DNA of 64,000 nt, taken from positions 310,001 to 374,000 of the forward strand of contig JBBELK010000451.1 of assembly GCA_037783545.1 (NCBI GenBank), in the 5' to 3' direction. A program made the translations under genes and the position numbers. The notes under the pieces are model-generated. The model saw nothing but the letters and a program-made list of their open reading frames with translations. It was not told the DNA's origin and ran no database searches. Shown piece after piece: positions 22,201-64,000 of this stretch (its first letter is position 1; each line of letters starts with the position of its first letter). Origin of the DNA: Henricia sp. BOLD:AAB3569 (lineage: Eukaryota; Echinodermata; Asteroidea; Spinulosida; Echinasteridae).

Positions 22201-25200
22201 ACATGTATGCAGCGTATTGTAGTTGTAGAGTACAGTATGCACTTTGTTTGATTGCTTTGCAAATGTTTATTGGCAGTTTCAGACAGTCATTATATTATGA
22301 ATTCCACATCAAGATTTCATGACGTCGGGTTCCATTTTGTAAGTTCAGGATTGAGGTTTTTGTCGTAATGATTTCTGCCTGCTGCATCTGTGTGGAATTT
22401 ATTTATTTTTTATGAGACATTTATGATGAGTTTTAAATTTTGGCTGTGTGCATGGTATTTTGTCTTGCGCGTGGGTTCGAAAATACTAGAAAATTATTAT
22501 AATCCTAATAATTCTAAACCGTGAAAATCTTTAAAATGTAATAATGGTACATGTAGACACTCGTATAGCGCATATGTCTACCTACAGGGTACTCCTGCCG
22601 CTGTTTCCATTATTACTGCTGCCATCAGGAAATCACCAGAACCATTTCACTTCAACTAGGTGGCTGCCTGACCAAGGGGCACAACCCTGTCAGCAGTTAC
22701 ATGTAGATTGTGGCATTCCCCCTTAACAGCTCCCCGAATATCACTTGGGTTGACGAGGCAATGTGTGTTTCATCTATAGCACCATTAAAATGGCAGAAAC
22801 ATGTCGACCATCATAGTTAGATTTTGCAAACTTTAAAATATTTCTACTCTACATGTATACTGTACTAGGCATGGGCGACTCCAGCATTTTCGGAGTCGAC
22901 TCCGATTCAAAAAAAGAATCGCGATTTCATTCGGAATCTTCCATTTTTCGCGGGAAAACATTAAATATACTGAGCGTGTTTAATAGGTAAATGAGCGTGT
23001 TTACGTACATCGACGATACTAATTATTGTGCCGAGTGGCACTAAACGTCCCCGAAATGATGCCGGCCTTTACCACACACACTTTCTTAATAATGTGGAAA
23101 TGATCGGAGGCTAAATATTCTTACAAAAGTTGGAGTTTTGCCTTTGGAATTGCTAGGTAATTTCTCGAATCGAATCTAAATGAAAGGGAATCGATTTCTA
23201 CTGGGTATCGATTCCTCAAAAATCTGGAATCACGATTCCGATTCCCAAAGTGGAATCGATTTTACTTGATTCTGGCGTGGAATCCCCAAGCCTTTACTGT
23301 ACATGTACGTATATTGAGTGCTACCGGTATTTTCAGCCGCATTTTTCCATAATAACATTCTAGCTTGCTTGCTACATTTATGTTTCTGAAAACTAACAGA
23401 GAAAGACTAACAGTGTTCCTTATTGTGTGTGCATCTTAAGTCAATAAAAAGACTTACTGTCCAAACTTACTTGAGGCTTCGAAGAAAGAATCGAATTAGC
23501 AGATATTTGATAGAATAAATTTCAATTATGCATTAATGTGTGGATACTAACCGTCAATGTCTCAAACAAGTAGATCCATTTTTGTTTTCACTAAATGGCC
23601 ATTCTTTCGCTTAAAGAGTGCTCTAATACTTTTGCTTACTGACGACGTAAAATTAAGTTTACATAATTTCTTTGTCATCTCCGGAATGTTTGCACCTTCA
23701 ATTTATTTTGTGACTTAACAAGATTTTATAATTAAATAAGGGTAAAAGTAGAGTTGGTTTACGAGCCAGGTACTAGCTCATACAGCTGGTACATGTACTC
23801 ATCCCCGGTTTCTGTGGCATGGAGTGACTAGGAGCATTGCTACTCCCCTTGGATGGGATGCCAGTCCATCGCAGGTTTACCCCCATCAGTTAGTTGGGTT
23901 TTCCCAACAGGTTGTTAGTTTCCATGGCATGAAGTGACTAGGAGCATTGCTACTCCCCCTGGATGGGGATGCAAGTCCATTGCAGGTTTACCCCCAGCAG
24001 TTAGTTGGGTTTCCCAACCAATATTTGCCGGTACCCATTTATACACCTGGGTGGAGAGAGACAATGTGGAGTAAAGTGTCTTGTCTAATGACACAACGCG
24101 GTGCAATGACCAGGCCTCGAACCTCAAACTTTTTATCTGAAAGTCTGATGCGTTATCTACTAGACCAACATGCCTCTGTATACATATGCATCCTGTGCAT
24201 TACTTAATAATATTAATAATGGTAGATACTTATATAGTGCACATATCTACATGTACCCTACATGGGGGAATGCTGGCGCTGTTGCCATTATTACCGCTGC
24301 TATCAGGAAATCACCAGAACCATTTCGCTTCAACTGGGTGGCTGCTTGGCCAAGGCGCACAACCCTAGGCTATTAGCACTTATATTGTGGCATTCTCCCT
24401 AACAGCTCCCCAAATATCGCTTGGGTTGACGTGGCAATTGAGATTAAGTGTCTTGCCCACAGACACAAACATGTTGGCACAAGTGGGGCTGGAACCCATA
24501 ACCCCTCGATCACGAGCACAGCTGTCTATCCACTAGGCCAAACGTGTCTATTTAATGGTGATTTTATTTTGGGCCGTTTTGTTTCTGTGTGTTGCATGTG
24601 GGTAATGGTCACTCCAGCCCCTGTGGCTGGAGTGACCATTACCCACATGCAAGACACAAGATGCACTAACAGAAACCAAGTTTATTACTCAACAATCACA
24701 AAACAGTTTTGAAGTCGGATACTTAATAAGTTTTCTCCCTTTTTTCTGATGCAGGGAGGAGAGAGGCTGGAAAAACTGCCCCACGTAAACTCACAGGAGG
24801 GCAGTCCTCTTAAGGTAGGTCGCTCGCCAACATCGTCATCCCCGGAGAGAATCCCTTCCGCGTCATCCACAGAGACTACTCCACCAGAGAGCAGACGAAA
24901 TTTTCAGAACGGCGGCACTGCGAACGAGCCAGAAATCTACACTACACTCAAGACCTCAATTCCTACAAGTACGACCAAGGATAGTGCAGTTCGCGATGCC
25001 CTTCCGGTCACTTTTCAAGACTTGGAAAACTTGTCAGGTGGTCAGGCATCCCAAAGTGCTCCGTCGTCTCCAAATCTGAACCGAGTACATTCTCTAAAGT
25101 CAAGTGGGGCTAGGAGACCAAGGTCTAAGCTAGCTCAGCCGGTGTCCTACGTGTCCAAGCTCACCGGTTCCCAAGACAGTTTATTCTCAGAAGGCTCTCA

Positions 25201-29814: not shown

Positions 29815-30803
29815 ACATGTATGGCCAGTACTCATCCCCGGTATTCATGGCATGGAGTGACTAGGGGCACTGCTACTCCCCCTGGATGGGATGCCAGTCC
29901 ATCGCAGGTTTACCCCCAGCAGTTAGTTGGGTTCCCCAACAGGTTGTTAGTTTCCATGACATGGAATGACTAGGAGCCTTCGCTCATTCCCAGCTTGCTG
30001 GGAATGAGCAAACTAGGAGCATTGCTACTCCCCCTGGATGGGATGCCAGTCCATCGCAGGTTTACCCCCAGCAGTTAGTTGGGTTTCCCCAACAGGTTGT
30101 TAGTTTCCATGGCATGGAATGACTAGGAGCATTGCTACTCCCCCTGGATGGGATGCCAGTCCATCGCAGGTTTACCCCCAGCAGTTAGTTGGGTTCCCCA
30201 ACAGGTTGTTAGTTTCCATGACATGGAATGACTAGGAGCCTTCGCTCATTCCCAGCTTGCTGGGAATGAGCGAACTAGGAGCATTGCTACTCCCCCTGGA
30301 TGAGATGCCAGTCCATCGCAGGTTTACCCCCAGCAGTTAGTTGGGTTTCCCCAACAGGTGGTTAGTTTCCATGACATGGAGTGACTAGGAGCATTGCTAC
30401 TCCCCCTGGATGGGATGCCAGTCCATCACAGGTTTATCCCCAGCAGTTAGTTGGGTTTCCCCAACAGGTTGTTAGTTTCCATGGCATGGAGTGACTAGGA
30501 GCATTGCTACTCCCCCTGGATGGGATGCCAGTCCATCACAGGTTTACCCCCAGCAGTTAGTTTGGTTTCCCCAACAGGTTGTTAGTTTCCATGGCATGGA
30601 GTGACTAGGAGCATTGCTACTCCCCCTGGATGGGATGCCAGTCCATCGCAGGTTTACCCCCAGCAGTTAGTTTGGTTTCCCCAACAGGTTGTTAGTTTCC
30701 ATGGCATGGAGTGACTAGGAGCATTGCTACTCCCCCTGGATGGGATGCCAGTCCATCGCAGGTTTACCCCCTAGCAGTTAGTTTGGTTTCCCCAACAGGT
30801 TGT
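29815..30803. repeat. Tandem array of a SINE body, about 107-112 bp unit, about eight copies
   Basis: Units contain GGAGTGACTAGGAGCATTGC, TGGATGGGATGCCAGTCCAT, CCCAGCAGTTAGTTGGGTTT and CCCCAACAGGTTGTTAG. Two units carry an extra hairpin segment (CGCTCATTCCCAGC / GCTGGGAATGAGC) at about 29975-30010 and 30240-30275, giving a higher-order period. The same sequence is part of the SINEs at 23800-24180 and, inverted, 40515-40700. The array resumes at 32831 after the retroelement. Confidence 0.85.
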
Positions 30804-36866: not shown

Positions 36867-45602
<8,736 letters not shown>

Positions 45603-47030
45603 ATCAACAGTTTTGTCCTTTTAACAGCAATTCCTTCAATATTTTCAAGGCCCTAAGTCGTGATCGTTCGAAATCCACACACCATGCATGATGCACACCG
45701 GCAAATGTCAACAAATCAACCTTGTGATGCATCCATACTACCTAGAATCGATTTTATTATGTTTGCTTTTAAAATACATACAGCAAAAGGTAATTTTAAA
45801 AGGGTTATTGAGTCAATGACACGTAATGCACATTGTACAACCTTGTAATGCATCCATACTGTTTTAGTTTGGATAAACTGCGGCCCCACGTCTCGCGATT
45901 AGGAATATTGTCTTCGATAGAATCGATTCCCATCATTTTGGCGTTTCCATTCGTGCCCGGAATGGTGCAGAAATTACTAAAGTCCGAGAATTTGGCAATG
46001 TTTTGTATCATCAGGTTTGTGAGATATTTTGTTCAAATTTTAATTAAACTTTGTTTGTTTTGGAAATGGAATCGAATACAAATTTGAATTGCGATACCAA
46101 AAGTATTGGAATCGCTGGTCTGCCAAAACACAGATTGTTTTTGAAACGACTGTCTACGGTCAGGCTTGATACATCTCAGAAATGAACGCAGCTAAAGAAA
46201 CATTTAGCCTCAACACTAACTTAAACATTGATCTCTGATGATTGGATTTAAGGCCAGCAGGAAGACTTAAACCAGATAGCCACACACAGTACAGGGGAGA
46301 GACAAAAACAAATTACAAAGATAAAGCCTAAAGCCTAATTCATCGTTTTGAAAACGACTATATACATACTGTACGTGCGTTGTAACGTGCACTTAAAACA
46401 CATGCAGTAAAAGGCGAAAGTAATTTGTCGAGCGTCGTTCATGTTGTTGTGACCTATATAATTTTGGCCTGGGTGTGTACGTGTGTGCACGTGGCCGGCT
46501 TACGTGCAGTTCTGACAGTACACGCGCGGCGTGGCTTGTCCCTTTCTCGAGGGGTGTGGGGGGAGGGGGAGGAGGGAGGAGGCGGCATACAAAATATTCA
46601 TGAGTTCGGCGCACGGATCTCTTCCTATTTACATGTTGTTGTTAATTTTATGGCATCTTCGGCAACTAAGGGCCTTTATGCCATTAAACTGTACGGTTTT
46701 AGCTTTAACTATACTTTATTGTCAACTCGAGATGACGAGGAAGGGTTGCAGTTTTAGAAATGGGAGGAAAACCCCTAGAGAAATCCCCAGGGGAAAACCC
46801 ACGCGGTCAAGTAGGGACTGCAAACCCAATCCACATACACGCCCCGGCCGGATGCGTGTTTTTTTTTTTTTTACACCGCAGCCAGGGGTACACCTTAATT
46901 TTTCAACCCGAATAGAGTCTAAGTTTCCAATGACTGATACTTCTCAAGTGACAATCTTGGAAATAGTCACAACTCTTACTCTCACTATTAGAGAAAAAGA
47001 AGAAACCGAGAAACTTCGAAAAATCCCAAA

Positions 47031-47106
47031 CATGACTGAGATTCGAACCAGGGACCTTATGATTACAAGTCGAGCTCTCTTCTAACCAGACCAAGCAGCT
47101 GAACCG
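47031..47106 (-). repeat. tRNA-Thr(TGT)-like pseudogene
   Basis: On the minus strand GCTTGGTCTGGTTAGAAGAG (A-box), an anticodon loop CTTGTAA (TGT, Thr type) and CCCTGGTTCGAATC (B-box). The ends do not pair as an acceptor stem, so it is a tRNA-derived remnant. Confidence 0.45.
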
Positions 47107-47191
47107 TAACCTATTATATAGTCTCCTTTCAAGACGCTAAAAATGTACAAAACCCCTCATTTTCCCCTTGCAGTGGTGTAAAAAAAAATTA

Positions 47192-47263
47192 CGCGCCCCG
47201 GATTCGAACCCGGGACGTCAGAGGTGAAAGGCGAGGAAAGAACCGCTACGCCAACACGTCCGC
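47192..47263 (-). repeat. tRNA-like sequence (SINE head or pseudogene)
   Basis: The minus strand has TGTTGGCGTAGCGGTTC (A-box region) and a perfect T-arm CCGGGTTCGAATCCGG. The acceptor ends (GCGGACG and CGCG) are only partly complementary. Confidence 0.45.
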
Positions 47264-48541
47264 GCTCCTACTTACATGGGTGCACCCTGTAGAGGGTATT
47301 GAGAATTGTCTCTGCTTCTGATTGGTTCAAATGAGAATGAATATGAATATTCTCTATAAATTAGCGCCCTCAGGAGTTGTTAAAAAAAGAAAGAAACGAG
47401 TAGGTTTTAGCGAGTTTTATTTATTTATTTATTCCATTTATTTACCCAGGGTGTGCCCAAACAGTTTACAAAAAACTGGTTTCCATTGGGGCCCAGCAAA
47501 CACTCATAAAACAAATATATTAAATTAAACAACTTCACAATCACAAACAAACTGGAATAAGATACAACTACAACATCGAAAATAGACAAAACATCAACAC
47601 TCGGACAAAACTAATGGTTACAGAAGAACAACATCACAAGATATATTATACATGCACGTGACACTGACATTTACGCTAAATATGGGAAGGGTGAAAAGGG
47701 GAAATTCCCTTCTGGCTCCAAAATTAATTTTTTTTTATGGCAACCAAGTCATACGACTCCGTAAATCAGCATTTCTCCCTTGAAGTTGATCATGTGAATA
47801 TTATATATTTCTAACTCTCGAAACACAGCGTAGAATTGAGTTAAGTGAACAGATTACATGCTTTATGCAACACAATTAACACATACGCATGTGAGTAGTA
47901 TGTAGCGAGCTATGTACACCCCCGTAGGTGGTGACAATGTTCAAAATATGTGTGGTGCCGGGTGGTGTCGGGTGGTGCCGGGTGGTGTCATGAGCAAAAA
48001 TGGTGGTGTGGTGCGGTGCCATGACCCATATGGTGGTGTGAGGTGGTTGGTTTCCTCCTACCCCTAACTACAGCCCTAACTATAATCCCACTTGGTGGTG
48101 ACAGGTAGTTTGTTTCCCCCTAACTCACCCCGCCTCCTATCTCACCCCTCCCCCATCACACACCCCATTCATTTATTTAAAAACAATGTCGGAAAAAAGT
48201 TTGAACCGTCGTTAGCTATTGCAAGGACGGTGAGGGTGTCAAAGAAAGATTTACGAATCACGCTAACTTGTGAACATCATCATGACGATCGATGGTCGTT
48301 AAGCAGTAACAGAAAATCATTTCGATGTGACGTCGTCTATTTGGAGAAAAGATAACTAATAAAAATCATCATTAAGAGTAGAACATGTGAAGACAATGTA
48401 TATAAAATATCCACTTGATATAAGGAAATAAAATAAAATGTGTATGCAAGAGTATAAGGAAACAAGGTTTGATAGGGTGTCTCAATCTGCACGAAGTTAC
48501 AACCTGTATCCTTGCTTTACATTTCCTCCAACCTAACATTA

Positions 48542-49080
48542 CGCCCTTAGTTTCCTCATACTTATCTCGATGTCAGTTGAACATACATCCTCAAGTTCCG
48601 TTTCTTCAGTTTGATACATTTCTGTCACAGACAAATAGGTGTTCTTAGACCTAATCCGCACACCATCACATCCTTACGGTCTGTTTCCTCCAGCTCTACC
48701 TCGCGCCCTTAGTTTCCTTGTACTTATCACGTCACTACAACTTACTTCCATAGTTTCCTCATACTTATCTCGATGTCAGTTGAACATACATCCTCAAGTT
48801 CCGTTTCTTCAGTTTGATAAATTTCTGTCACAGACAAATAGGTGTTCTTAGACCTAATCCGCACACCATCACATCCTTACGGTCTGTTTCCTCCAGCTCT
48901 ACCTCGCGCCCTTAGTTTCCTTGTACCTATCACGTCACTACAACTTACTTCCTTAAGTTCTTTAACTTCCTTGTCACCGACATGCATGTACAATTTGAAC
49001 AATACTTCTATTTCCTCGTCACCGACATACAATTTGAACAATACTTTTACCTCCTTGTCACCGACATACAATTTGAACAA
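48542..49080. repeat. Subterminal tandem repeats of the Polinton, left
   Basis: A 203-bp unit occurs twice (about 48542-48744 and 48745-48954; for example GTGTTCTTAGACCTAATCCG at 48632 and 48835 areas). It is followed by about three copies of a roughly 45-bp unit with CACCGACATACAATTTGAAC. The inverse lies at 58912-59450. Confidence 0.85.
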
Positions 49081-49088
49081 GTCGGGAT

Positions 49089-49096
49089 CTATAAAA
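49089..49096 (+). promoter_or_regulatory. TATA box of the left Polinton polymerase gene
   Basis: CTATAAAA lies 56-63 bp upstream of the ATG at 49152, a normal spacing for a short 5' UTR. The inverse copy is at 58903-58896. Confidence 0.6.
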
Positions 49097-49388
49097 CCCT
49101 TGAGAAGTTTGTCCGAGGTTTCAATTCTTGTTGAGTGTTTGTGCTGGCATCATGTCTGAACCACCCGATGACGACCCCTACTACCCGTTTAATTCTCCGG
49201 ACCCAACGGCATCCCAGCTCGAGATGATCGCTGGTGCAGACGATTATCCCTTTGGTTCTCCAGACCCGACTTTGTCGCAGCTCGAGATGATTGTTTGTTT
49301 AGAGGAGGACGCGCTTGCTGGTCCATCTGATGAGTCGCTAGTTATCCCAGAGACGCCTCCTCATTTGCAAGGCAGAGCAGACGTGCAG

Positions 49389-50335
49389 GTAATTTATTAT
49401 TATTATTATTATTTATATATGTTAAGTCTGCACATTGAAAAGTTTGAAGATAAACCGTTACACTTTTTACTAATTTTAGAAAACGGATGGAAAAACGACT
49501 AAAGGTTTTTATTGACTGTCAGTGTATAACCACCACTCATGTTAACTGTATAATATAACCGCGTTTAAAGAAATTCTATATACAATATCAACTTAGTAAC
49601 TTGAGCCGCTGGTTGTTAAGAAAAAATTGTAGGATAATGTTTTGTCCCGATGATCTTTATTATAATGTACTAATACAACACTTTATAGTTAATGGCATCA
49701 CCTAAACGATAATTATAGTTTAAGGTCAAGTTCACGTTAATTAGTTTAAAGGCTCATTGTATCATTTGCAATGACCCAATTTCGTTGATGCCTCTATGTA
49801 GCTAAATTTTCGTGAGGTTAGTTTACCATCATTCTTCCTTAGTTAGATATGTTACACTCTTATTACACGAATTATCTTGCAAATGATACACAGCCCTTTA
49901 AAATCGGTATAATCACGCCAGTATATACGTTTATTATTTCGTGTCTATACGCAACCCCTATAGGTTAGTTAATAACATAATTTAAACGATCGCATTTTGA
50001 AGTCCGGTCCGTGTTAACTGGTTTAAAATCGAATTATGAGCAATAGGTCTAATTATGTCAGTACGTTTTCGTGCTTAATCTTGTCAGTGACGTCATATTG
50101 GTCGCATTTCCTGTTAATGCACACAACAAAACATAAATACAACGCTTGCTATATAGCACGTCTGGACTTGTCCATGACGTCACACATCCCACACTACGTA
50201 CCAAATAAAAACAAAATTTTGGCCTTAAAGTATATAATGCAAAACTACTGCAATAATATTCACATTTCCCATGTGTCGCTCAGTCGCTGACGCAACAAGC
50301 ATGTAACCGGGGGCTTTGTTAATTGTATATTTCAG
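49389..50335 (+). other. Intron 1 of the left Polinton gene
   Basis: Donor CAG|GTAATT followed by a TTA/ATT run; acceptor GTATATTTCAG. It carries a MITE at 49744-49905. The part from 49626 onward is duplicated at 52411. Confidence 0.6.
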
Positions 50336-52288
50336 AACGTGAATGCTGCTCCGGAGAGAAACGTTTTCGTATCTTCTCAACCCCTTTTGGATATGTCTGA
50401 AGAAGAACACATGGTAAGTAAAATACGTAATTTACAACTGCTTTTAATTGTAATTGTCTTAGTTTTTAACAAATAACTTAAGGTTAGCGGTGACTTGTAA
50501 GTAAATGGTGTGGAAAATATCTCTAGCTTGCTCGGTATTAAAATCAAATCATTTACTAAACATGGATGGATACGCCCAAATACCTTTGAATATAACCAAA
50601 AACAAACGATTACTTTCGCTTACAAAGCTTTTAAAAAATTTCAAACAGCCCAACCAACAAACAAACAAAAAATCGTAATGGCCTAATATGTTTAGTCATA
50701 CATGGTTTCAAGAATGGTTTTATAATTGGAAATTATCATTAATTACCCTGTTCTTCTTCTTTATTTTGTTAAAGGACATCTCAGATGTCGACAGCGTAGT
50801 TGTCGAGCAACCCGATGCACCACCCCAGGACGAGAATCGGCGAGTGACGTATCGCTGCTCTCAATGCGAGAAAACATTTACTCGCAAGTTCACCTTAAGC
50901 CGACACAAGCTCCGCCAACACATCGGACAAGATCAGCTCCCTCCCAACGAATACGAGTGCCGACACTGTGGCAAGTTCTTCAGTCGTCAAGATAGTCTGC
51001 GACGACACCAGAGGATCCACGCACGCCAACAGCAACAGGGACAACATGCACCAGCAGACAACCAACCAAACCCTGCCCTCCCACCACCACCACCAGAAGC
51101 TGCACCAGCTCGTCCGCGTTTTGCCTGCGATGTCTGCGAGAAAACATTTACCACAAACAGTAGCATGCAACGCCACAAAAGAACTGCTCACCGACCAGTT
51201 GAGCCACCGGGTAATGTTCCTGCTCCACCCGCACCGCCCGCACCTCCCGCACCTCTTGTTCCTCCAGCTGATCCTCCTGCTCCACCCCCACCTCCTGCTG
51301 CGGGCGCTCCACTTGCCCCGGCCAATATTCCTGCTGCAGACCCGATGGATGAAGATCCACAAGACTTCCCGGCTGACGGGGAGGATCTTGAGGATGATGA
51401 CGAGGAAATGAACGAACTTCTACGTCAGAACTGGGGATCTGTTAGAACCCATCACTATACAGGCCGACCAGTGCAGGACATGTATAATTTCAGATTAGTC
51501 GGATCAAGAAGATTGGGAGCCGGTATCAACCAAGAGCTTGCACTTCGATCCATTTTTGCTCGACTAAGGCGCCGCGTAAAAATCAATATATCGTTTGGCA
51601 TAGTGTTACGTCACTCAACTACGGGTGAGCTACGCTATTTTCACCCTAGTTACAACAACGCAAGGCTGTTCGAGGAACCGTTTACGATTGCGTCCGAAGC
51701 GGACTTTGAGCTTCTGTTGGAAGCTCTAGACGAAATAGACTTGGCCGAACATGGACGACGCAACCGTCCAGACACGAAATGGACCGTAGAGGGAACAACG
51801 AACATGACTGTTTTTGTCAACAAGACAGACTTTGTGATAGGTGCCCCCTTCGTCGAACTGCCTCCCTTCGTAAGCAATAACACGGGCCTTACGAAACTCG
51901 TACGGAACAGACACACTGGCCAGCGATACGACGACACACTCTGTTTTTTTAGGTGTTTGGCACTAGACAATAAACAAAACCCAATTGCCTTAGACAATGA
52001 AGCCAAACAGTTGCTCCACCGGTATCGCGCGGGTATTGGTAACCCGAGAGCAAACGGCGTGACTTTAGAAGACTTAGATAACGCGGAAAGAATATTCAGT
52101 ATTAACGTGCAGGTATATTCATTGATCCAGGCGAATGACGACGACGATGAAGACACCGCACAAGAGGATGCTGGGCATGGGCAACGGCGTCACAAGATTA
52201 GAGCAGAGCTCGTACGTCGATCTCGTCGACGATATCCGCGGACACTTAACCTGAACTTATTCGCCGGCCACTTCTCCTACATCACTGA
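49626..52288. repeat. Internal direct duplication of the Polinton, copy 1
   Basis: Matches 52411-55085 (offset 2785, becoming 2797 after a 12-bp indel near 52148). It starts at ATTGTAGGATAATG and ends at ATCACTGA. Confidence 0.9.
49744..49905. mobile_element. MITE inside the Polinton intron (copy 1)
   Basis: TTTAAAGGCTCATTGTATC then ATTTGCAATGACC at the left; CTTGCAAATGATACACAGCC then CTTTAAA at the right, roughly inverted. It belongs to the ATTTGCA family spread through the window. Identical copies at 52529-52690 and 58087-58248 show it was present before the Polinton rearranged. Confidence 0.7.
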
Positions 52289-52410
52289 TCAGGCCCGCAA
52301 CGTCATCTTTGATTACGCAAACTGAGGTTACCATGGACAGTTACGAAATCATCTGAGATGTCCTTTAACAAAATAAAGAAAGAGAACAGGGTAATTAATG
52401 ATAATTTCCA
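52289..52410. repeat. Junction between the duplicated blocks: filler plus inverted fragment
   Basis: 52289-52349 (TCAGGCCCGCAACGTCATCT start) has no other copy in the window and may come from the missing interior. 52350-52413 (CATCTGAGATGTCCTTTAAC start) is the inverse of 50724-50787, the intron 2/exon 3 border, with an AAGAAAGAG/AAGAAGAAG difference. Confidence 0.85.
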
Positions 52411-55085
52411 ATTGTAGGATAATGTTTTGTCCCGATGATCTTTATTATAATGTACTAATACAACACTTTATAGTTAATGGCATCACCTAAACGATAATTA
52501 TAGTTTAAGGTCAAGTTCACGTTAATTAGTTTAAAGGCTCATTGTATCATTTGCAATGACCCAATTTCGTTGATGCCTCTATGTAGCTAAATTTTCGTGA
52601 GGTTAGTTTACCATCATTCTTCCTTAGTTAGATATGTTACACTCTTATTACACGAATTATCTTGCAAATGATACACAGCCCTTTAAAATCGGTATAATCA
52701 CGCCAGTATATACGTTTATTATTTCGTGTCTATACGCAACCCCTATAGGTTAGTTAATAACATAATTTAAACGATCGCATTTTGAAGTCCGGTCCGTGTT
52801 AACTGGTTTAAAATCGAATTATGAGCAATAGGTCTAATTATGTCAGTACGTTTTCGTGCTTAATCTTGTCAGTGACGTCATATTGGTCGCATTTCCTGTT
52901 AATGCACACAACAAAACATAAATACAACGCTTGCTATATAGCACGTCTGGACTTGTCCATGACGTCACACATCCCACACTACGTACCAAATAAAAACAAA
53001 ATTTTGGCCTTAAAGTATATAATGCAAAACTACTGCAATAATATTCACATTTCCCATGTGTCGCTCAGTCGCTGACGCAACAAGCATGTAACCGGGGGCT
53101 TTGTTAATTGTATATTTCAGAACGTGAATGCTGCTCCGGAGAGAAACGTTTTCGTATCTTCTCAACCCCTTTTGGATATGTCTGAAGAAGAACACATGGT
53201 AAGTAAAATACGTAATTTACAACTGCTTTTAATTGTAATTGTCTTAGTTTTTAACAAATAACTTAAGGTTAGCGGTGACTTGTAAGTAAATGGTGTGGAA
53301 AATATCTCTAGCTTGCTCGGTATTAAAATCAAATCATTTACTAAACATGGATGGATACGCCCAAATACCTTTGAATATAACCAAAAACAAACGATTACTT
53401 TCGCTTACAAAGCTTTTAAAAAATTTCAAACAGCCCAACCAACAAACAAACAAAAAATCGTAATGGCCTAATATGTTTAGTCATACATGGTTTCAAGAAT
53501 GGTTTTATAATTGGAAATTATCATTAATTACCCTGTTCTTCTTCTTTATTTTGTTAAAGGACATCTCAGATGTCGACAGCGTAGTTGTCGAGCAACCCGA
53601 TGCACCACCCCAGGACGAGAATCGGCGAGTGACGTATCGCTGCTCTCAATGCGAGAAAACATTTACTCGCAAGTTCACCTTAAGCCGACACAAGCTCCGC
53701 CAACACATCGGACAAGATCAGCTCCCTCCCAACGAATACGAGTGCCGACACTGTGGCAAGTTCTTCAGTCGTCAAGATAGTCTGCGACGACACCAGAGGA
53801 TCCACGCACGCCAACAGCAACAGGGACAACATGCACCAGCAGACAACCAACCAAACCCTGCCCTCCCACCACCACCACCAGAAGCTGCACCAGCTCGTCC
53901 GCGTTTTGCCTGCGATGTCTGCGAGAAAACATTTACCACAAACAGTAGCATGCAACGCCACAAAAGAACTGCTCACCGACCAGTTGAGCCACCGGGTAAT
54001 GTTCCTGCTCCACCCGCACCGCCCGCACCTCCCGCACCTCTTGTTCCTCCAGCTGATCCTCCTGCTCCACCCCCACCTCCTGCTGCGGGCGCTCCACTTG
54101 CCCCGGCCAATATTCCTGCTGCAGACCCGATGGATGAAGATCCACAAGACTTCCCGGCTGACGGGGAGGATCTTGAGGATGATGACGAGGAAATGAACGA
54201 ACTTCTACGTCAGAACTGGGGATCTGTTAGAACCCATCACTATACAGGCCGACCAGTGCAGGACATGTATAATTTCAGATTAGTCGGATCAAGAAGATTG
54301 GGAGCCGGTATCAACCAAGAGCTTGCACTTCGATCCATTTTTGCTCGACTAAGGCGCCGCGTAAAAATCAATATATCGTTTGGCATAGTGTTACGTCACT
54401 CAACTACGGGTGAGCTACGCTATTTTCACCCTAGTTACAACAACGCAAGGCTGTTCGAGGAACCGTTTACGATTGCGTCCGAAGCGGACTTTGAGCTTCT
54501 GTTGGAAGCTCTAGACGAAATAGACTTGGCCGAACATGGACGACGCAACCGTCCAGACACGAAATGGACCGTAGAGGGAACAACGAACATGACTGTTTTT
54601 GTCAACAAGACAGACTTTGTGATAGGTGCCCCCTTCGTCGAACTGCCTCCCTTCGTAAGCAATAACACGGGCCTTACGAAACTCGTACGGAACAGACACA
54701 CTGGCCAGCGATACGACGACACACTCTGTTTTTTTAGGTGTTTGGCACTAGACAATAAACAAAACCCAATTGCCTTAGACAATGAAGCCAAACAGTTGCT
54801 CCACCGGTATCGCGCGGGTATTGGTAACCCGAGAGCAAACGGCGTGACTTTAGAAGACTTAGATAACGCGGAAAGAATATTCAGTATTAACGTGCAGGTA
54901 TATTCATTGATCCAGGCGAATGACGACGACGATGAAGATTCCGATGAAGACACCGCACAAGAGGATGCTGGGCATGGGCAACGGCGTCACAAGATTAGAG
55001 CAGAGCTCGTACGTCGATCTCGTCGACGATATCCGCGGACACTTAACCTGAACTTATTCGCCGGCCACTTCTCCTACATCACTGA
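52411..55085. repeat. Internal direct duplication of the Polinton, copy 2
   Basis: The second copy of 49626-52288. It carries the 12 bp missing from copy 1 and continues without a break into the exonuclease part of the polymerase gene, so it preserves the ancestral arrangement. Confidence 0.9.
52529..52690. mobile_element. MITE inside the Polinton intron (copy 2)
   Basis: Identical in structure to 49744-49905, in the duplicated block. Confidence 0.7.
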
Positions 55086-55890
55086 CTTAAAACGCTATAG
55101 CAAGTCGTACGCCTGCTCTAAATGTAGCCACGCATTTAATAAGCCACACAATTTGTTACGGCACGAGTTAATATGCGAGTCGAACGTGACACACAGGTTT
55201 CCCGGCGGTGCCTATACTCTCCCAAGAACCGTCTTTGACAAACTGGCTGAGATGGGTATAAACATTCCCAAAACCGATCAGTGTTATCCCTACCGCGCAG
55301 CTTTCGACTTCGAGTCCTACTTCCAGAAAGCGCCAAACGAAGGACAGGGCAACGGTAAATTGACATGGGAAAGTCGGCACGAAATTCTAAGTTGTAGCCT
55401 GGCAAGTAACGTCCCCGGTTTTGACGAACCAGTATGTTTTGTGACGACCGGCAGCTCCAGCGAAGTAGTCAACCAAATGGTGGATCATCTGCTCGCCGTC
55501 TCAGAGACCGCGCACAGACTGCTACTGGAGAAGTATAGGGACATCTTTGAGCAGCTCGACCAAATCATCGAGGAGGCTGGAGAGAACGACAGAGGGGGAG
55601 AGAACGACAGAGGAGAAGAGAACACCCGCAAAACACCCACCGAGCAGGTCAAGGAGGAGCTGAATGACTACTTGCAAGAGTTACCAGTTCTCGGTTTCAA
55701 CAGTGGTAAGTATGACATAAATCTTATCAAGCGATACTTGTATTCTAAACTCCAGAAAGACGATCCCTTAAAATTCATTGTCAAAAGGACTGCCGTTGCC
55801 CATGCCCAGCATCCTCTTGTGCGGTGTCTTCATCGGAATCTTCATCGTCGTCGTCATTCGCCTGGATCAATGAATATACCTGCACGTTAA
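53121..55890 (+). pseudogene. Polinton DNA polymerase B gene, middle copy: zinc fingers plus exonuclease start, chimeric 3' end
   Basis: Exons 53121-53198 and 53560-55890; exon 1 and promoter are absent from this copy. After three C2H2 fingers and the DDTLCFFRCLAL/FAGHFSYITD region, a fourth C-x2-C finger follows (KSYACSKCSHAF, with NLLRHELIC). Then come AAFDFESYF, fitting the ExoI D-x-E motif of family B polymerases, and VLGFNSGKYDINLIKRYL, fitting ExoII (N...D). ExoIII and the palm motifs (SLYP, DTD) are missing. At 55792 the frame crosses into the inverted arm and reads antisense sequence until 55890. The family (protein-primed PolB) is inferred from motif order and TIR context. The protein cannot polymerise DNA. 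Confidence 0.75.
54986..55791 (+). other. Single-copy loop of the Polinton palindrome
   Basis: 806 bp bounded by CAACGGC (54979-54985) and its inverse at 55792-55798. It encodes the fourth zinc finger, ExoI and ExoII. All surviving single-copy Polinton coding sequence is here, except the part shared with copy 1 up to 52288. Confidence 0.85.
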
Positions 55891-58840
55891 TACTGAATAT
55901 TCTTTCCGCGTTATCTAAGTCTTCTAAAGTCACGCCGTTTGCTCTCGGGTTACCAATACCCGCGCGATACCGGTGGAGCAACTGTTTGGCTTCATTGTCT
56001 AAGGCAATTGGGTTTTGTTTATTGTCTAGTGCCAAACACCTAAAAAAACAGAGTGTGTCGTCGTATCGCTGGCCAGTGTGTCTGTTCCGTACGAGTTTCG
56101 TAAGGCCCGTGTTATTGCTTACGAAGGGAGGCAGTTCGACGAAGGGGGCACCTATCACAAAGTCTGTCTTGTTGACAAAAACAGTCATGTTCGTTGTTCC
56201 CTCTACGGTCCATTTCGTGTCTGGACGGTTGCGTCGTCCATGTTCGGCCAAGTCTATTTCGTCTAGAGCTTCCAACAGAAGCTCAAAGTCCGCTTCGGAC
56301 GCAATCGTAAACGGTTCCTCGAACAGCCTTGCGTTGTTGTAACTAGGGTGAAAATAGCGTAGCTCACCCGTAGTTGAGTGACGTAACACTATGCCAAACG
56401 ATATATTGATTTTTACGCGGCGCCTTAGTCGAGCAAAAATGGATCGAAGTGCAAGCTCTTGGTTGATACCGGCTCCCAATCTTCTTGATCCGACTAATCT
56501 GAAATTATACATGTCCTGCACTGGTCGGCCTGTATAGTGATGGGTTCTAACAGATCCCCAGTTCTGACGTAGAAGTTCGTTCATTTCCTCGTCATCATCC
56601 TCAAGATCCTCCCCGTCAGCCGGGAAGTCTTGTGGATCTTCATCCATCGGGTCTGCAGCAGGAATATTGGCCGGGGCAAGTGGAGCGCCCGCAGCAGGAG
56701 GTGGGGGTGGAGCAGGAGGATCAGCTGGAGGAACAAGAGGTGCGGGAGGTGCGGGCGGTGCGGGTGGAGCAGGAACATTACCCGGTGGCTCAACTGGTCG
56801 GTGAGCAGTTCTTTTGTGGCGTTGCATGCTACTGTTTGTGGTAAATGTTTTCTCGCAGACATCGCAGGCAAAACGCGGACGAGCTGGTGCAGCTTCTGGT
56901 GGTGGTGGTGGGAGGGCAGGGTTTGGTTGGTTGTCTGCTGGTGCATGTTGTCCCTGTTGCTGTTGGCGTGCGTGGATCCTCTGGTGTCGTCGCAGACTAT
57001 CTTGACGACTGAAGAACTTGCCACAGTGTCGGCACTCGTATTCGTTGGGAGGGAGCTGATCTTGTCCGATGTGTTGGCGGAGCTTGTGTCGGCTTAAGGT
57101 GAACTTGCGAGTAAATGTTTTCTCGCATTGAGAGCAGCGATACGTCACTCGCCGATTCTCGTCCTGGGGTGGTGCATCGGGTTGCTCGACAACTACGCTG
57201 TCGACATCTGAGATGTCCTTTAACAAAATAAAGAAGAAGAACAGGGTAATTAATGATAATTTCCAATTATAAAACCATTCTTGAAACCATGTATGACTAA
57301 ACATATTAGGCCATTACGATTTTTTGTTTGTTTGTTGGTTGGGCTGTTTGAAATTTTTTAAAAGCTTTGTAAGCGAAAGTAATCGTTTGTTTTTGGTTAT
57401 ATTCAAAGGTATTTGGGCGTATCCATCCATGTTTAGTAAATGATTTGATTTTAATACCGAGCAAGCTAGAGATATTTTCCACACCATTTACTTACAAGTC
57501 ACCGCTAACCTTAAGTTATTTGTTAAAAACTAAGACAATTACAATTAAAAGCAGTTGTAAATTACGTATTTTACTTACCATGTGTTCTTCTTCAGACATA
57601 TCCAAAAGGGGTTGAGAAGATACGAAAACGTTTCTCTCCGGAGCAGCATTCACGTTCTGAAATATACAATTAACAAAGCCCCCGGTTACATGCTTGTTGC
57701 GTCAGCGACTGAGCGACACATGGGAAATGTGAATATTATTGCAGTAGTTTTGCATTATATACTTTAAGGCCAAAATTTTGTTTTTATTTGGTACGTAGTG
57801 TGGGATGTGTGACGTCATGGACAAGTCCAGACGTGCTATATAGCAAGCGTTGTATTTATGTTTTGTTGTGTGCATTAACAGGAAATGCGACCAATATGAC
57901 GTCACTGACAAGATTAAGCACGAAAACGTACTGACATAATTAGACCTATTGCTCATAATTCGATTTTAAACCAGTTAACACGGACCGGACTTCAAAATGC
58001 GATCGTTTAAATTATGTTATTAACTAACCTATAGGGGTTGCGTATAGACACGAAATAATAAACGTATATACTGGCGTGATTATACCGATTTTAAAGGGCT
58101 GTGTATCATTTGCAAGATAATTCGTGTAATAAGAGTGTAACATATCTAACTAAGGAAGAATGATGGTAAACTAACCTCACGAAAATTTAGCTACATAGAG
58201 GCATCAACGAAATTGGGTCATTGCAAATGATACAATGAGCCTTTAAACTAATTAACGTGAACTTGACCTTAAACTATAATTATCGTTTAGGTGATGCCAT
58301 TAACTATAAAGTGTTGTATTAGTACATTATAATAAAGATCATCGGGACAAAACATTATCCTACAATTTTTTCTTAACAACCAGCGGCTCAAGTTACTAAG
58401 TTGATATTGTATATAGAATTTCTTTAAACGCGGTTATATTATACAGTTAACATGAGTGGTGGTTATACACTGACAGTCAATAAAAACCTTTAGTCGTTTT
58501 TCCATCCGTTTTCTAAAATTAGTAAAAAGTGTAACGGTTTATCTTCAAACTTTTCAATGTGCAGACTTAACATATATAAATAATAATAATAATAATAAAT
58601 TACCTGCACGTCTGCTCTGCCTTGCAAATGAGGAGGCGTCTCTGGGATAACTAGCGACTCATCAGATGGACCAGCAAGCGCGTCCTCCTCTAAACAAACA
58701 ATCATCTCGAGCTGCGACAAAGTCGGGTCTGGAGAACCAAAGGGATAATCGTCTGCACCAGCGATCATCTCGAGCTGGGATGCCGTTGGGTCCGGAGAAT
58801 TAAACGGGTAGTAGGGGTCGTCATCGGGTGGTTCAGACAT
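55781..58840 (-). pseudogene. Polinton zinc-finger/DNA polymerase B gene, right copy, truncated
   Basis: Exons (minus): 58840-58604, 57656-57579, 57217-55781. Same start, promoter (TATA at 58903-58896), splice sites and three zinc fingers as the left copy. The frame ends a few codons past the loop junction (GHGQRQSF-stop), so the exonuclease and polymerase parts are missing. Transcripts from this gene and from the left genes would be complementary over kilobases and could form double-stranded RNA. Confidence 0.75.
58087..58248. mobile_element. MITE inside the Polinton intron (copy 3, inverted)
   Basis: Inverse of 49744-49905 within the right arm. Confidence 0.7.
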
Positions 58841-58895
58841 GATGCCAGCACAAACACTCAACAAGAATTGAAACCTCGGACAAACTTCTCAAGGG

Positions 58896-58903
58896 TTTTA
58901 TAG
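58896..58903 (-). promoter_or_regulatory. TATA box of the right Polinton polymerase gene
   Basis: Inverse of CTATAAAA at 49089-49096, 56-63 bp before the ATG at 58840. Confidence 0.6.
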
Positions 58904-58911
58904 ATCCCGAC

Positions 58912-59450
58912 TTGTTCAAATTGTATGTCGGTGACAAGGAGGTAAAAGTATTGTTCAAATTGTATGTCGGTGACGAGGAAATAGAAGTATTGTTCAAATT
59001 GTACATGCATGTCGGTGACAAGGAAGTTAAAGAACTTAAGGAAGTAAGTTGTAGTGACGTGATAGGTACAAGGAAACTAAGGGCGCGAGGTAGAGCTGGA
59101 GGAAACAGACCGTAAGGATGTGATGGTGTGCGGATTAGGTCTAAGAACACCTATTTGTCTGTGACAGAAATTTATCAAACTGAAGAAACGGAACTTGAGG
59201 ATGTATGTTCAACTGACATCGAGATAAGTATGAGGAAACTATGGAAGTAAGTTGTAGTGACGTGATAAGTACAAGGAAACTAAGGGCGCGAGGTAGAGCT
59301 GGAGGAAACAGACCGTAAGGATGTGATGGTGTGCGGATTAGGTCTAAGAACACCTATTTGTCTGTGACAGAAATGTATCAAACTGAAGAAACGGAACTTG
59401 AGGATGTATGTTCAACTGACATCGAGATAAGTATGAGGAAACTAAGGGCG
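58912..59450. repeat. Subterminal tandem repeats of the Polinton, right
   Basis: Inverse of 48542-49080, with the same 203-bp and roughly 45-bp units. Confidence 0.85.
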
Positions 59451-60104
59451 TAATGTTAGGTTGGAGGAAATGTAAAGCAAGGATACAGGTTGTAACTTCG
59501 TGCAGATTGAGACACCCTATCAAACCTTGTTTCCTTATACTCTTGCATACACATTTTATTTTATTTCCTTATATCAAGTGGATATTTTATATACATTGTC
59601 TTCACATGTTCTACTCTTAATGATGATTTTTATTAGTTATCTTTTCTCCAAATAGACGACGTCACATCGAAATGATTTTCTGTTACTGCTTAACGACCAT
59701 CGATCGTCATGATGATGTTCACAAGTTAGCGTGATTCGTAAATCTTTCTTTGACACCCTCACCGTCCTTGCAATAGCTAACGACGGTTCAAACTTTTTTC
59801 CGACATTGTTTTTAAATAAATGAATGGGGTGTGTGATGGGGGAGGGGTGAGATAGGAGGCGGGGTGAGTTAGGGGGAAACAAACTACCTGTCACCACCAA
59901 GTGGGATTATAGTTAGGGCTGTAGTTAGGGGTAGGAGGAAACCAACCACCTCACACCACCATATGGGTCATGGCACCGCACCACACCACCATTTTTGCTC
60001 ATGACACCACCCGGCACCACCCGACACCACCCGGCACCACACATATTTTGAACATTGTCACCACCTACGGGGGTGTACATAGCTCGCTACATACTACTCA
60101 TGTG

Positions 60105-60379
60105 GTTAGGCCAATCAGGAGCATGATGTGCCCTCGACCCTCCTAGGAAAAACAAAATACGCTGACCGGAAGGGGCACGCAAAGAACATTGTGGTTTTTT
60201 TTTAGACGTGGGATAATATTACGTGGACTTGAAACCAGTCTGATAGACGTCACTCGAAGTTGCTAGAGTTGTTTGTGTACATGTATATGAGGTCCGGAAA
60301 CCAGTCTAAACTCTTAATCTTGAGGGCGCTGAAAAAAATTGACTAGTAAAAAGCTGCACTCACTCAGTCTTGATCAAGT
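60105..60379. other. Presumed promoter region of the rightmost gene
   Basis: Unique sequence between the Polinton and the first exon of the rightmost gene. Contains ATAATATTACGTGGACTTG and a CACGTG (about 60393) just inside the presumed exon. No TATA box in a persuasive position. Confidence 0.35.
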
Positions 60380-60600
60380 TGTGTAAACAAACGCACGTGT
60401 TTGTTCTCTTTTCTTTTTTGGACTTTGAACAAGATTCTCGTCTGCTAACACCAAGTCAAAGACAACAACACGTCGGCACGATCGATTTTGCTTGCATTCG
60501 TTCATCTTCGTCAACGACGTCGCGTACGTTCCTATTCTCCGTCCAGGATAAAGTCGGCGCCTGTGCACTGCAGTTTTGCAGCCTGTAGTCAGAATCAGGT
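60380..60600 (+). other. Probable 5' untranslated exon
   Basis: GC-richer than its surroundings, ends in a strong donor CAG|GTACGT, and contains no ATG in frame with the next exon. The 5' boundary is arbitrary. Confidence 0.4.
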
Positions 60601-62905
60601 ACGTTGATATGTTATTTTTATACACGGAAAAATTTAGAAGTTGGTCATGGATTCCGACCTTGTGCACAAAACATTTGAGATTGGCTGAAATTTTCCAAGT
60701 GCTTTTTAAGAAAATCTTTTATTTTTCCTACTCCTAAATAGATTTGTGTTTTTCTATCAAATCTGCACTTAACTGGTACTTGATAAGTAATTTTCAAGTC
60801 ATGATCAACTTCTCAATTCTTACCGTCATTTTAAGGAGAAAATAGTGATGTCTAACTTGGACATACTTATACCCACATTTGGAGAAAAAATGGCCAGCAT
60901 GCCCATTTAGTTCACCTCACGTACGTATTAAAGTTATTAGATTTTAAACACGTATCTAATGATCTTCAGTATGGGGCCGCGACAAAAGTTGTCAACATTT
61001 TCACAACATTCCCTCCCCCCACCCCCCCGAAATACTACTTATCAACATTTTTTGTCACTACCATGAAATGTCAAAATTTTACAGTGCATGTATTGTAAAG
61101 TCATACACTGCCCTCGACCCCCTCACCCCTTTCTATGCTTTGTAGAACCGTAAAAATGTTGGCAACTTTGGAAGGCACATCCTTGAGGAAAGTTTAATTC
61201 AGGAAAAGATTGACGCTATTCTCAATAAGTGTGGGAGATTGTATAGGAAAACCACCTCATGCACCAAAAATAATAAGGGCTGAAAGGGAAACTTGTCAAA
61301 TAGCTGTTTGGTTGACAAACAAATTGCCTCTAGTGTCTCTTATAGAACGAGCAAATGCAGTAAAGTTGTTTTTAGGAAACACATACATGTATATAGTGAT
61401 CATGAAAAACAAAACAATAAAATTACAAATTCTTTCCTAATACTAACAATTGTCTGTTTCTTTATTTGACAGGATTTGTGCCATGCATGATCAAGACGAA
61501 GAAGGGACTGAATATAACGGGAGGGAGGTATGAGCGACAGTTTTACTTTTGTAGACCAATATGTTTTAGCCAGAGCGGTGTCTGGGTAGTATGCATTTCG
61601 GACACACGTTAACTAAAAAAGCATTGACTTATGGTGTTTAAAGTATCCCAGAGGTGTTCAAAGTAGCCAAGGGGTTGTCCAAAGTAATCAGAGGTTGTCC
61701 AAAGTAGCCCAGGCGGTGTTTAATGGAAGCCACACAAATCGTACCACTCAAAATAACAGCGGTACCGCTTTTATTACTGGCGGTTAGATTTGTGTGTCTT
61801 CCCTAAAGTAGCCCAGTGGGTGTCCAAAGTATCCCAGGGGGTGTCCAAAGTAACAGAAAGGGTTTCCAAAGTCGAAAAGTAGCCAAGGAAATGTTTCAAG
61901 ACACCCCAGTTGATAGAGAAGTCTAGATGCAAAACAGTCCAAAGGGTTTGTAATTTACCTCATGCACCCATATTGTATAATATCCAAACACACAACTGGC
62001 TAAAACTATTGGCTGTAGTTGTAACATTAGCCTGATGTTGGCTACAGGATATATATAAAAACATTATTTTGTTACTTTCAAAATGGTTATTCAAGTAACC
62101 ACTTGACGCCGGGATTATTTTTGGCAAAAGTACACTTGTTTGAAAAAAAAGGCAAATGTGATTGGCCAGAAGTTAAGACCAGGTCAAGTGCCACAAATAC
62201 TGACTCTTGAGAGTCATTTCTGCATTTATTGTATGAATCTCCGAGATTGCCGCAATGAAGCGAGATTTGCTAAACTGACAGGCCGTCCACAGCTGTCAAA
62301 TTCAAATTAAAAACACGGTGTATACAATTGAATGGTGGACAATAGGTTTACACGTCAACCTTGGAAGACGGTGGCAAAGCTGGCATTTTAACTCGTCAAC
62401 CACCCCTGTGACTATACATTGCCAAAATGACACATCCTCCTGCATCAAGTGGTTAATGTGAAACTTTATTTTTAAATCAGAAGGCCCTGACTGATTCTTG
62501 ATGTTTGATTCATTCTGTGAAATTTGAATACACTGACGGCAATTTTGTGATGTATAATGCATTCAGCTGTTTTCATTGAGTCTTGACACAATAGTCTGAG
62601 TACTCAGACCAGTGAATTTCATGCTTCTATGACTTTGTTTCTTATTTCTTTTCACAACATTTATTAAAATATTTTCAAATCTTAAGGGTAATTCATTTTC
62701 ATTGACTGTCAGTATACATGTGCATCAATCATAGGCAAAACAAAAACATTAAAGCACGTGGCATTGTTTTTTTTGTTTTTTTTAGAAGTTGGTAGCCTTC
62801 CAGCGGAATGTTGTTATAGCCAACATCATGGCATCGACAACAAGTGTTGCAGCTCACCCCACACAGGTCATTCAGGTTGATGACCAAACAAACTTGCCTT
62901 TCTGA
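60380..62905 (+). CDS. Unidentified spliced gene, 5' exons
   Basis: A likely non-coding first exon ends at GAATCAG|GTACGT (60601); its 5' limit is unknown. The second exon (61473-61527, acceptor TTATTTGACAG, donor GGGAG|GTATGA) contains the ATG at 61483 and encodes MHDQDEEGTEYNGRE. The third exon (62786 on, acceptor after a long T-rich tract ending TTTTTAG) continues in phase 0 with KLVAFQRNVVIANIMASTTS and VAAHPTQ. If it ends at ACACAG|GTCATT (62866) the gene continues to the right; if not, it stops at 62903-62905 after 54 residues. No family was recognised. The gene diverges from HIF1AN. Confidence 0.45.
61483..61527 (+). CDS. First coding exon of the unidentified gene
   Basis: 15 codons in an exon starting at 61473, with good acceptor and donor, phase 0. 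Confidence 0.5.
61640..61880. repeat. Degenerate short tandem repeat, about 20-25 bp unit
   Basis: Repeated AGTAGCCCAGNGGGTGTCCA and CAAAGTANCCCAGGGGGTGT phrases with irregular spacing, interrupted around 61725-61800 by a small inverted repeat (AATCGTACC / GGTNNGATT-like). Confidence 0.6.
61901..62326. other. Intron sequence, nothing recognised
   Basis: AT-rich intronic DNA without repeats or coding sequence that I can identify. Confidence 0.4.
62327..62460. repeat. Interspersed repeat shared (inverted) with 37020-37140
   Basis: TGGAAGACGGTGGCAAAGCT, CCCCTGTGACTATACATTGC and GCATCAAGTGGTTA are the inverse complement of the block in HIF1AN intron 7. TIR status is unclear. Confidence 0.6.
62786..62866 (+). 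CDS. Second coding exon of the unidentified gene
   Basis: 27 codons in phase 0. The donor GTCATT is weak. Reading on gives 12 more codons and a TGA at 62903. Confidence 0.45.
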
Positions 62906-63567
62906 GGGCCCTTGACAATATGATTCTCCCAGAAACAGAAAATGGATCATTTTATTACTGTGGGAACCGGTAAAGTTGTTCAACCAGGTCTCCTTGGACC
63001 TGAAAGAAATCACTGAAACGGAACAGTGTTGATTTCAAAGTGCCTTACTAGTGCCTGTCATCCACAAGTTCTCTTTGTATTCAATAGACCCGTTTTGATC
63101 AAAATTTCTGTTAAAATGTTTCTTTTGGTTATACATGTAGTTGGAAGTCATATGAGAGATGTTTACTTTTGCAGAATGTTTCGTGTTATGGTGTTCGTTA
63201 TAGCAATTTTCCACTGTAATGTGTTTGAAAAAAGTGTTAATTTTAGAGTAGATCTTCAATTAAAGATACATTCTGCCTCAACACTTTTCGAAATTGTGTA
63301 AAATTAACTACTGAAATGCATAATCTCTGTGATAAATTTATCCTGCTTACGATTGGACCATCTTTTCACATTTAACAATTTAGAGGTCCTTTTTATGGCT
63401 TAATCTCTGGCAGAATGCACCTTTAAAAGTTTTTATTTTATCATGTGTAGTCTTTTGCCCCATTATAAATTGTGTTTATATCACAATTGTGTTATTGCTT
63501 GCCATGTTGGCTCATTTTATTGTATTGTAATTTTGTCAACATTTTGCTTTTTTTTACAGAGCTCGTA

Positions 63568-63762
63568 AGGGGACTCAATTCCAAAAACATTTTTTATTTG
63601 GTTCCCTCAAAATACGTTTGTGCCGTCGAAATAGGTTTTGTTCCCTCAAAATTTGGAGGTAACGAAGTAATATTTTGAGGAAACAAAAAGTATTTCGAGA
63701 GAACAAACTTTATTTCGATCAGGGAATGAAATAAAAAATGTTTTTGGAATTGAGTCCCCTGA
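63568..63762. mobile_element. Foldback MITE
   Basis: AGGGGACTCAATTCCAAAAA at the left and its inverse TTTTTGGAATTGAGTCCCCT at the right. TTCCCTCAAAATA-type words and their inverse fill the interior. Confidence 0.8.
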
Positions 63763-63809
63763 CGGGATCTGCACTTTTAGCTCTTTTTTACATTTCTATT
63801 TGTCATTTT

Positions 63810-64000
63810 TAGTCATTTTATTGTAATTTTCTTTTCATCCTTCGCCCTTTAATAGCCAATTTATTGTAATTTTGTAATTGTTAGCCTTTTGAGCCCATTT
63901 ATTGTAATTTTGTAATTTTGGTGCCCCATCATTTATTTTGTAATTTTTAGCGTTTTTAGCCCATTTATTTTAATTTTGTCATTTTGGCGCCCCATCGTTT
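63810..64000. repeat. Degenerate tandem repeat, about 35-60 bp unit
   Basis: CCCATTTATTGTAATTTTGT and ATTTTGGNGCCCCATC recur several times to the window edge. Confidence 0.65.

Follow-up and report, generated by a model that had tools for sequence, protein, structure and literature searches.

We describe an element of 12,205 bp at positions 47894-60098 of a 64,000-nucleotide stretch of DNA from the sea star Henricia sp. (henceforth the window; C451:310001-374000 in an assembly of 740.7 Mb and 2,104 contigs), which by its sequence reads as a defective, palindromic derivative of the Polinton/Maverick family and as no autonomous member of it. The palindrome is present in the assembly, is more complex than a first-pass annotation of this DNA had described, and is one case of a pattern that recurs in this genome. 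The sequence palindromes may be a fossil of Polinton DNA copying: we consider it probable that they arose by fold-back template switching in strand-displacing, protein-primed replication, giving snap-back molecules that were then inserted by an integrase acting in trans.

The element lies flush between two copies of CATGTG (47888-47893 and 60099-60104), a target duplication of exactly 6 bp, the length made by Polintons/Mavericks, that ends at both element edges. Its termini, AGTAGTATG... on the left and ...CATACTACT on the right, start with AG and show the (AGT)2//(ACT)2 motif of Polintons, and AGTAGTATGTAGCGAGC reads inward from each end, in inverse orientation. The first-pass annotation had reported both the CATGTG duplication outside the ends and the identical, inverted termini, and both were borne out. 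The sole other full-length match to the left flank was contig C386, in which the left and right flanks are joined over a single CATGTG, without the element. This contig is collinear in blocks with window positions 37219-47893 and 60095-64000 (identity 94.8-99.7%), block 42436-45292 being absent, and is most simply taken as the other haplotype. The insertion appears to be polymorphic, hence the process recent, and the palindrome appears to have been gained as one whole. Two Polinton-related copies elsewhere, at C1038:420719-421412 and C67:336771-337993, likewise have a common flank, their contig orientations being opposite; they are probably haplotigs like C386 and C451, and the assembly would therefore be incompletely collapsed. 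On C490, matches recur at 312128, 655485, and 998864 (a spacing of ~343 kb, three times), along with a second, less even set at 139383, 502189, and 844106, as would result from the tandem triplication of a large segment or from duplication in the assembly.

Inward from the termini, the two arms are identical over 4,260 bp, then 12 bp occur in the right arm only, and then identity resumes for 35 bp. The assembly thus has 0 mismatches in 4,295 aligned bp, which places an upper bound of ~0.07% on the divergence of the arms. This pairing has a coordinate sum of 107992, its copies lying 3.66 kb apart, whereas the 806-bp loop is flanked by identical inverse copies at 52410-54985 and 55792-58367 (2,576 bp, sum 110777). 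Arms of about 4.3 kb and a loop of 806 bp, as first annotated, therefore both exist, but they belong to different pairings. The left half contains a direct 2.7-kb duplication (B1, 49625-52288, and B2, 52410-55085), whose copies differ only by the 12 bp and enclose a 121-bp joint (52289-52409); the first-pass annotation had mentioned neither the duplication nor the joint. One terminus is thus inversely duplicated around a loop, as in a snap-back molecule, with a direct duplication added on one side.

Read along the forward strand, the element begins with segment A (47894-49624), the terminus on the side of the DNA polymerase gene PolB: its outer part corresponds to the terminal inverted repeat (TIR) of an ordinary sibling element on C399, and 203-bp and 39-bp tandem repeats and a predicted PolB exon 1 (49152-49388) follow. 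Segment B1 holds predicted introns, a predicted exon 2 (50336-50413), and the zinc-finger part of PolB, and is 12 bp short of the other two copies of B. The joint opens with a 61-bp scrap on the same strand (52289-52349), which takes in the last (3') bases of a capsid-like frame and the first of a protease-like one, and continues with a 64-bp copy of 50724-50787 on the reverse strand (52350-52413, 2 mismatches), of which the AATT at 52410-52413 overlaps the start of B2. B2 repeats B1 directly, 12 bp included. The loop (54986-55791, forward strand), single-copy from 55086 onward as 54986-55085 occurs once more in B1, carries the PolB exonuclease region. PolB homology stops at 55788-55790, at the fold junction (55791-55792), beyond which the right arm (55792-60098, 4,307 bp, reverse strand) repeats A and B inverted, without the joint. 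The direct duplication and the joint rule out a simple symmetric palindrome. Chance similarity is ruled out too, because the arms are mismatch-free, the 6-bp duplication is flush, and an insertion-free contig exists. Whatever their order, the structure calls for no fewer than two rearrangements plus one small indel. The source of the right arm is either B1, which would later have lost the 12 bp between repeats GATGAAGA, or B2, with a crossover into B1.

At each of the four junctions of the element 2-4 nt are shared; for the three switches of the joint the overlaps are TGA, CA, and AATT. At the fold, the relatives on C399 and C667 (see below) continue uninterrupted from AAAAGGAC into CAGC (GGAC/CAGC), whereas the window element has AAAAGGAC (GGAC), a single extra T, and then GCCGTTGCC of the inverted arm. 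The template side of the fold-back reads GTGAC/GCCGTTGCC, such that GAC is common to both and one T is extra. The scrap agrees at 60 of 61 bases with C399:492515-492575, where one frame ends in ...DQARNIIFDYAN and a stop and the next begins MDSYEI...; ten further places in the genome match this capsid/protease boundary more weakly. Every piece with a traced source, the scrap included, is Polinton DNA, and none is chromosomal.

Only one gene was found in the element, the front part of a Polinton DNA polymerase gene, in three copies, each of them truncated: the zinc-finger part and the beginning of the exonuclease region are retained, and the remainder is cut off. An open frame of 805 amino acids (53473-55890, forward strand) encodes this N-terminal part, including C2H2 fingers (Pfam) and the exonuclease-region words FDFE and GFNSGKYD, and crosses the fold into the inverted sequence. 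Among named proteins, the closest come from two sea stars, Patiria miniata and Asterias amurensis, and are 39-50% identical along part of the frame; the predicted three-exon start (49152-49388, 50336-50413, and 50775 on) matches an Asterias protein at E 4e-12. Among further relatives with which the frame aligns is P0004 (36%, residues 91-772), which hits PF03175, as do many longer unnamed relatives. DANALY, a core word of these relatives, is absent from the window element, which does not encode a complete protein-primed type B polymerase. No retroviral-type integrase was found in the element (the sibling on C399 has one), and of capsid, protease, and ATPase genes the 61-bp scrap was all that we found. 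The initial statement that structural and integrase genes are all missing thus fits apart from that scrap, and the polymerase itself is also incomplete. Five other frames of the window and one of segment A had no Pfam match, and IMG/VR searches, whether with the PolB part or an alignment of relatives, returned no relative. The predicted three-exon start of PolB in this lineage (window 49152-50774) sets it apart from the intact vertebrate Mavericks, described as intronless in the available part of PMC8097293.

Other derivatives of the PolB region occur in the genome. At C514:1331854-1332464 and C707:414598-415383, the middle of PolB (window ~51850) is joined straight to the terminal region (~48640); from their sequence we read both as derivatives by internal deletion whose endpoints nearly coincide. 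Runs of matches, all on one strand, to the PolB N-terminal region occur at C877:199505-207637, C303:751864-758779, and C38:387349-390437 (8, 11, and 5 matches, respectively); these are tandem arrays or broken copies of this part of the gene and may be connected with the direct duplication of the window element.

An ordinary Polinton of this lineage lies at C399:489672-506427 (16,756 bp, target duplication AGCGGG), with TIRs of ~490 bp and 98.4% identity. PolB stands at one end, and an ATPase (Pox_A32), an integrase (rve, chromodomain), and capsid-like and protease-like frames are arranged toward the opposite end. The names capsid and protease are our reading of two frames for which Pfam gave no match; the long PolB frame, also without a Pfam match at E 0.01, is identified by its homology to P0004. 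Because the TIRs of this sibling are only ~490 bp, arms of 4 kb are not a rule of the lineage.

Palindromes bounded by their own target duplications recur in the genome. The first, C667:76588-94394, has the target duplication TTTATC and AGTAGT ends. From its right end it runs through A, B, a whole-length PolB frame, an ATPase, and part of an integrase, then folds into PolB at a place equal to window 51786 (3-bp overlap CCG at the integrase/PolB fold) and leaves via B and A, enclosing a loop of 6,415 bp. Its 4.0-kb arms show 4 mismatches in ~3.9 kb and three indels (4, 29, and ~128 bp), and one arm contains a 3.45-kb insertion. Arm identities of 98.0% and 99.7% had suggested two strata; we dropped this reading, since the 98.0% stretch consists of two indels with 0 mismatches. 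The second, C1:2575812-2579530, is a 3.7-kb palindrome with the target duplication GTGCAT, a left end short by a few bases, arms of 1,608 alignment columns (97.5%, 17 mismatches), and a loop of ~0.5 kb. Both of its halves track the terminal side of the C67 copy inward, and the fold falls within 52 unaligned bases. C1, C67, and C1038 match window segment A to ~49198, and the inverted ends of C1038 match over ~590 bp only. A weaker locus, C861, is only a candidate for a fourth palindrome: its target duplication is CATGTA, its ends read AGTAGT, and near its far end, with ~3 kb between it and the TIR, the PolB start recurs as an inverted copy of 617 bp (95%).

The fold points differ between C451, C667, and C1, as expected of independent folds in independent molecules, and the arms end at different places as well (window coordinate 52188 in C451, 51786 in C667, and ~1.6 kb in C1). 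Genome-wide searches with the C451 and C667 folds found the whole window fold junction at one place only and no second copy of the C667 fold, and the 121-bp joint likewise had no second copy. The check set out in the first-pass annotation, a search for the same fold junction at other insertions, was therefore negative. Its corollary, that a single copy would favour a local event, fails nonetheless, because separate palindromes bounded by target duplications recur.

We also counted how often inverted pairs occur among the relatives of the element. Alignment rows nested in longer rows, or below a length floor (30 to 250 bp, depending on the script), were excluded; all 92 PolB rows and 49 opposite-end rows were clustered into loci at 25 kb, and the counts are lower bounds. 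A search with part of the PolB N-terminal region gave at least 92 matches at no fewer than 48 loci. Among the matches listed, 3 of 48 loci have pairs on both strands within 25 kb (C451, which is the window itself; C667; and C861) and 45 have matches on a single strand. With the opposite-end DNA of C399 we obtained at least 49 matches at no fewer than 31 loci, 5 of which, again among the matches listed, have pairs on both strands, as judged by coordinates only (C1960, C364, C412, C599, and C698). Random placement, in a simple model that ignores nesting and clustering of insertions, predicts ~0.04 PolB-region pairs and ~0.016 opposite-end pairs. At C1960:20905-32052, three inverted match pairs share one exact centre (26478.5) and have equal scores, as would result from a very young palindrome of the opposite end or from a fold-back in the assembly.

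How might such molecules arise? We propose that a full-length parent Polinton would be copied outside the chromosome by protein-primed, strand-displacing synthesis. A strand begun at the PolB-side terminus would leave its template inside PolB, pair over ~3 nt at a site further back, and copy back to the same terminus; copying through the hairpin-like product would give a linear duplex with the PolB-side terminus at each end. A second chain of switches, from PolB to the capsid/protease boundary, to an inverted piece of PolB, and to PolB upstream, would account for the one-sided direct duplication of 2.7 kb. Having a good terminus at either end, the molecule would be a substrate for an integrase supplied in trans and could insert at CATGTG. 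A single fold-back from the PolB-side terminus explains why the termini are identical, why there is a loop, and why the other end is gone, and the loops of ~0.5, 0.8 (or 3.7), and 6.4 kb call for long single strands, as strand displacement yields. The phi29 polymerase is protein-primed in its phage. In vitro, it formed inverted joins with an intervening gap in 406 of 475 chimeras, with 2 or more complementary bases in 76.8% of cases, according to the available part of PMC1855051, while the recovered fork-bound inversion junctions of yeast use repeats spaced by a few hundred bp at most in the available part of PMC10766183. That a replication intermediate folded and was then integrated, as the first-pass annotation had inferred, is the best-supported account, given the Polinton family, the empty site, and the further palindromes; it has to be extended to at least two rearrangements and to a process not confined to this locus.

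The strongest competitor, which we regard as unlikely and which the first-pass annotation had named as its alternative, is a rearrangement after insertion: an ordinary Polinton sat at CATGTG, a break or stalled fork in PolB started fold-back copying toward the left end, and synthesis then jumped from the left TIR to the homologous right one and ran on into the right flank. Such a course would likewise keep the target duplication and the flanks, the TIR homology (~490 bp in C399) could serve the second switch, and short-homology junctions with a templated insert also suit host break repair. Yet synthesis would have had to exit exactly through the other TIR each time, independently at three or more loci (C451, C667, and C1), and the capsid/protease scrap would have to come from across the element or from another copy. 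Nor was an allele with the ordinary element seen at the site, the one other contig found being empty. A molecule folded before insertion has two proper ends by construction, while one folded later must leave via the opposite TIR every time; the recurrence of palindromes with different folds and their own target duplications thus favours folding first.

An assembly artefact, in which fold-back reads, or confusion caused by the common TIR, attached the wrong inner sequence to the right flank, is in our view very improbable. The arms are identical in the assembly except for 12 bp, and the coordinate-exact symmetry of C1960 could be such a fold-back, but the window palindrome ends exactly at the element edges with differing flanks, and its halves differ by the 12-bp indel, the joint, and the direct duplication. 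Moreover, the substitutions and indels between the arms of C667 and C1, and the 3.45-kb insertion in one arm of C667, are hardly expected from a fold-back artefact. Least probable of all is a lineage with ordinary TIRs of several kb, including the PolB start, inherited from one ancestor: C451 and C667 do duplicate the same PolB-side region, but the short TIRs of C399, a close relative in sequence, and the differing arm ends led us to reject an inherited long TIR, neither of the longer folds should be derivable from the other by deletion, 45 of the 48 loci among the matches listed have PolB-region matches on a single strand, and no second locus was found for either boundary searched (C451 and C667).

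Several points weigh against folding during extrachromosomal replication as we propose it. Only the inserted form is seen, and we infer the order of folding before insertion, the protein-primed polymerase as the enzyme, the free molecule, and the integrase of a helper copy. The identity of the arms is that of the assembly alone, and the left/right asymmetry (direct duplication and 12-bp indel) demands at least one further event. The five opposite-end pairs are known by their coordinates only, and at C599 two elements may lie next to each other. Neither the C1 stretch nor the related C67 and C1038 gave a PolB match, so that only the ends of C1 and its terminal region tie it to the family. Finally, no further insertion with the same fold turned up for either fold searched genome-wide; with the window fold, the joint, and the C667 fold each single, movement of a finished palindrome is without an example.

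As for other features of the window, imperfect tandem repeats with ~110-bp steps, common to both places, lie at 29846-30803 and 23753-24018.

To our knowledge, the way in which animal Polintons replicate has been deduced from the genes they carry and from their end motifs. Palindromes that fold at different points and have their own target duplications are the kind of trace expected of a displaced-strand intermediate and can be counted in any assembled genome; if our interpretation is true, the assumed mode becomes testable from sequence alone, and Polintons have defective, helper-dependent derivatives of a kind known from linear DNA viruses. We give even odds to the broader proposition that animal Polintons yield snap-back defective genomes from both ends in extrachromosomal, strand-displacing, protein-primed replication, and that a helper integrase inserts these palindromes frequently enough for them to make up a recurrent insertion class. 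Were this so, chromosomes would preserve in fossil form an active replication cycle of Polintons and, possibly, a parasite of a parasite.

At the level of titles and abstract openings in the open-access literature, a scope that leaves out most subscription papers, we found no description of palindromic Polintons, in agreement with the initial remark that no such class had been described. Snap-back or symmetric defective genomes are found in linear DNA viruses such as adenovirus. The window element resembles them in the inverse duplication of one end, the central loop, the two functional termini, and a helper dependence that we take as implied, and differs in that it is seen, from sequence and with no particle shown, inserted in a chromosome with target duplications. 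With Polintons/Mavericks as described in the available part of PMC8097293 it shares the 6-bp target duplication, an inward PolB at one end, and the (AGT)2//(ACT)2 ends, the commonest end motif among the vertebrate Mavericks, and its sibling on C399 carries integrase, ATPase, and capsid-like frames. Unlike them, it has the same end at both termini, no integrase, and no polymerase core, and its 4.3-kb arms exceed the ordinary TIRs both of C399 and of intact vertebrate Mavericks (46-1,447 bp; PMC8097293). Chimeras of phi29 multiple displacement amplification show comparable inverted joins with a gap and 2-21 nt of complementarity, commoner between nearby segments, but are in vitro artefacts of an isolated polymerase and are not inherited (PMC1855051, available part). 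In yeast origin-dependent inverted-repeat amplification (ODIRA), a fold-back template switch also produces linear palindromic molecules, via hairpin-capped intermediates, that later enter the chromosome; there, as far as the available part of PMC10766183 extends, the source is a chromosomal fork with closely spaced repeats, and entry is by homologous recombination without integrase target duplications. Foldback-type transposons such as Galileo likewise have long inverted repeats containing internal repeats, but Galileo belongs to the P-element transposase superfamily (PMC3573991, available part), whereas the arms of the window element hold part of a polymerase gene.

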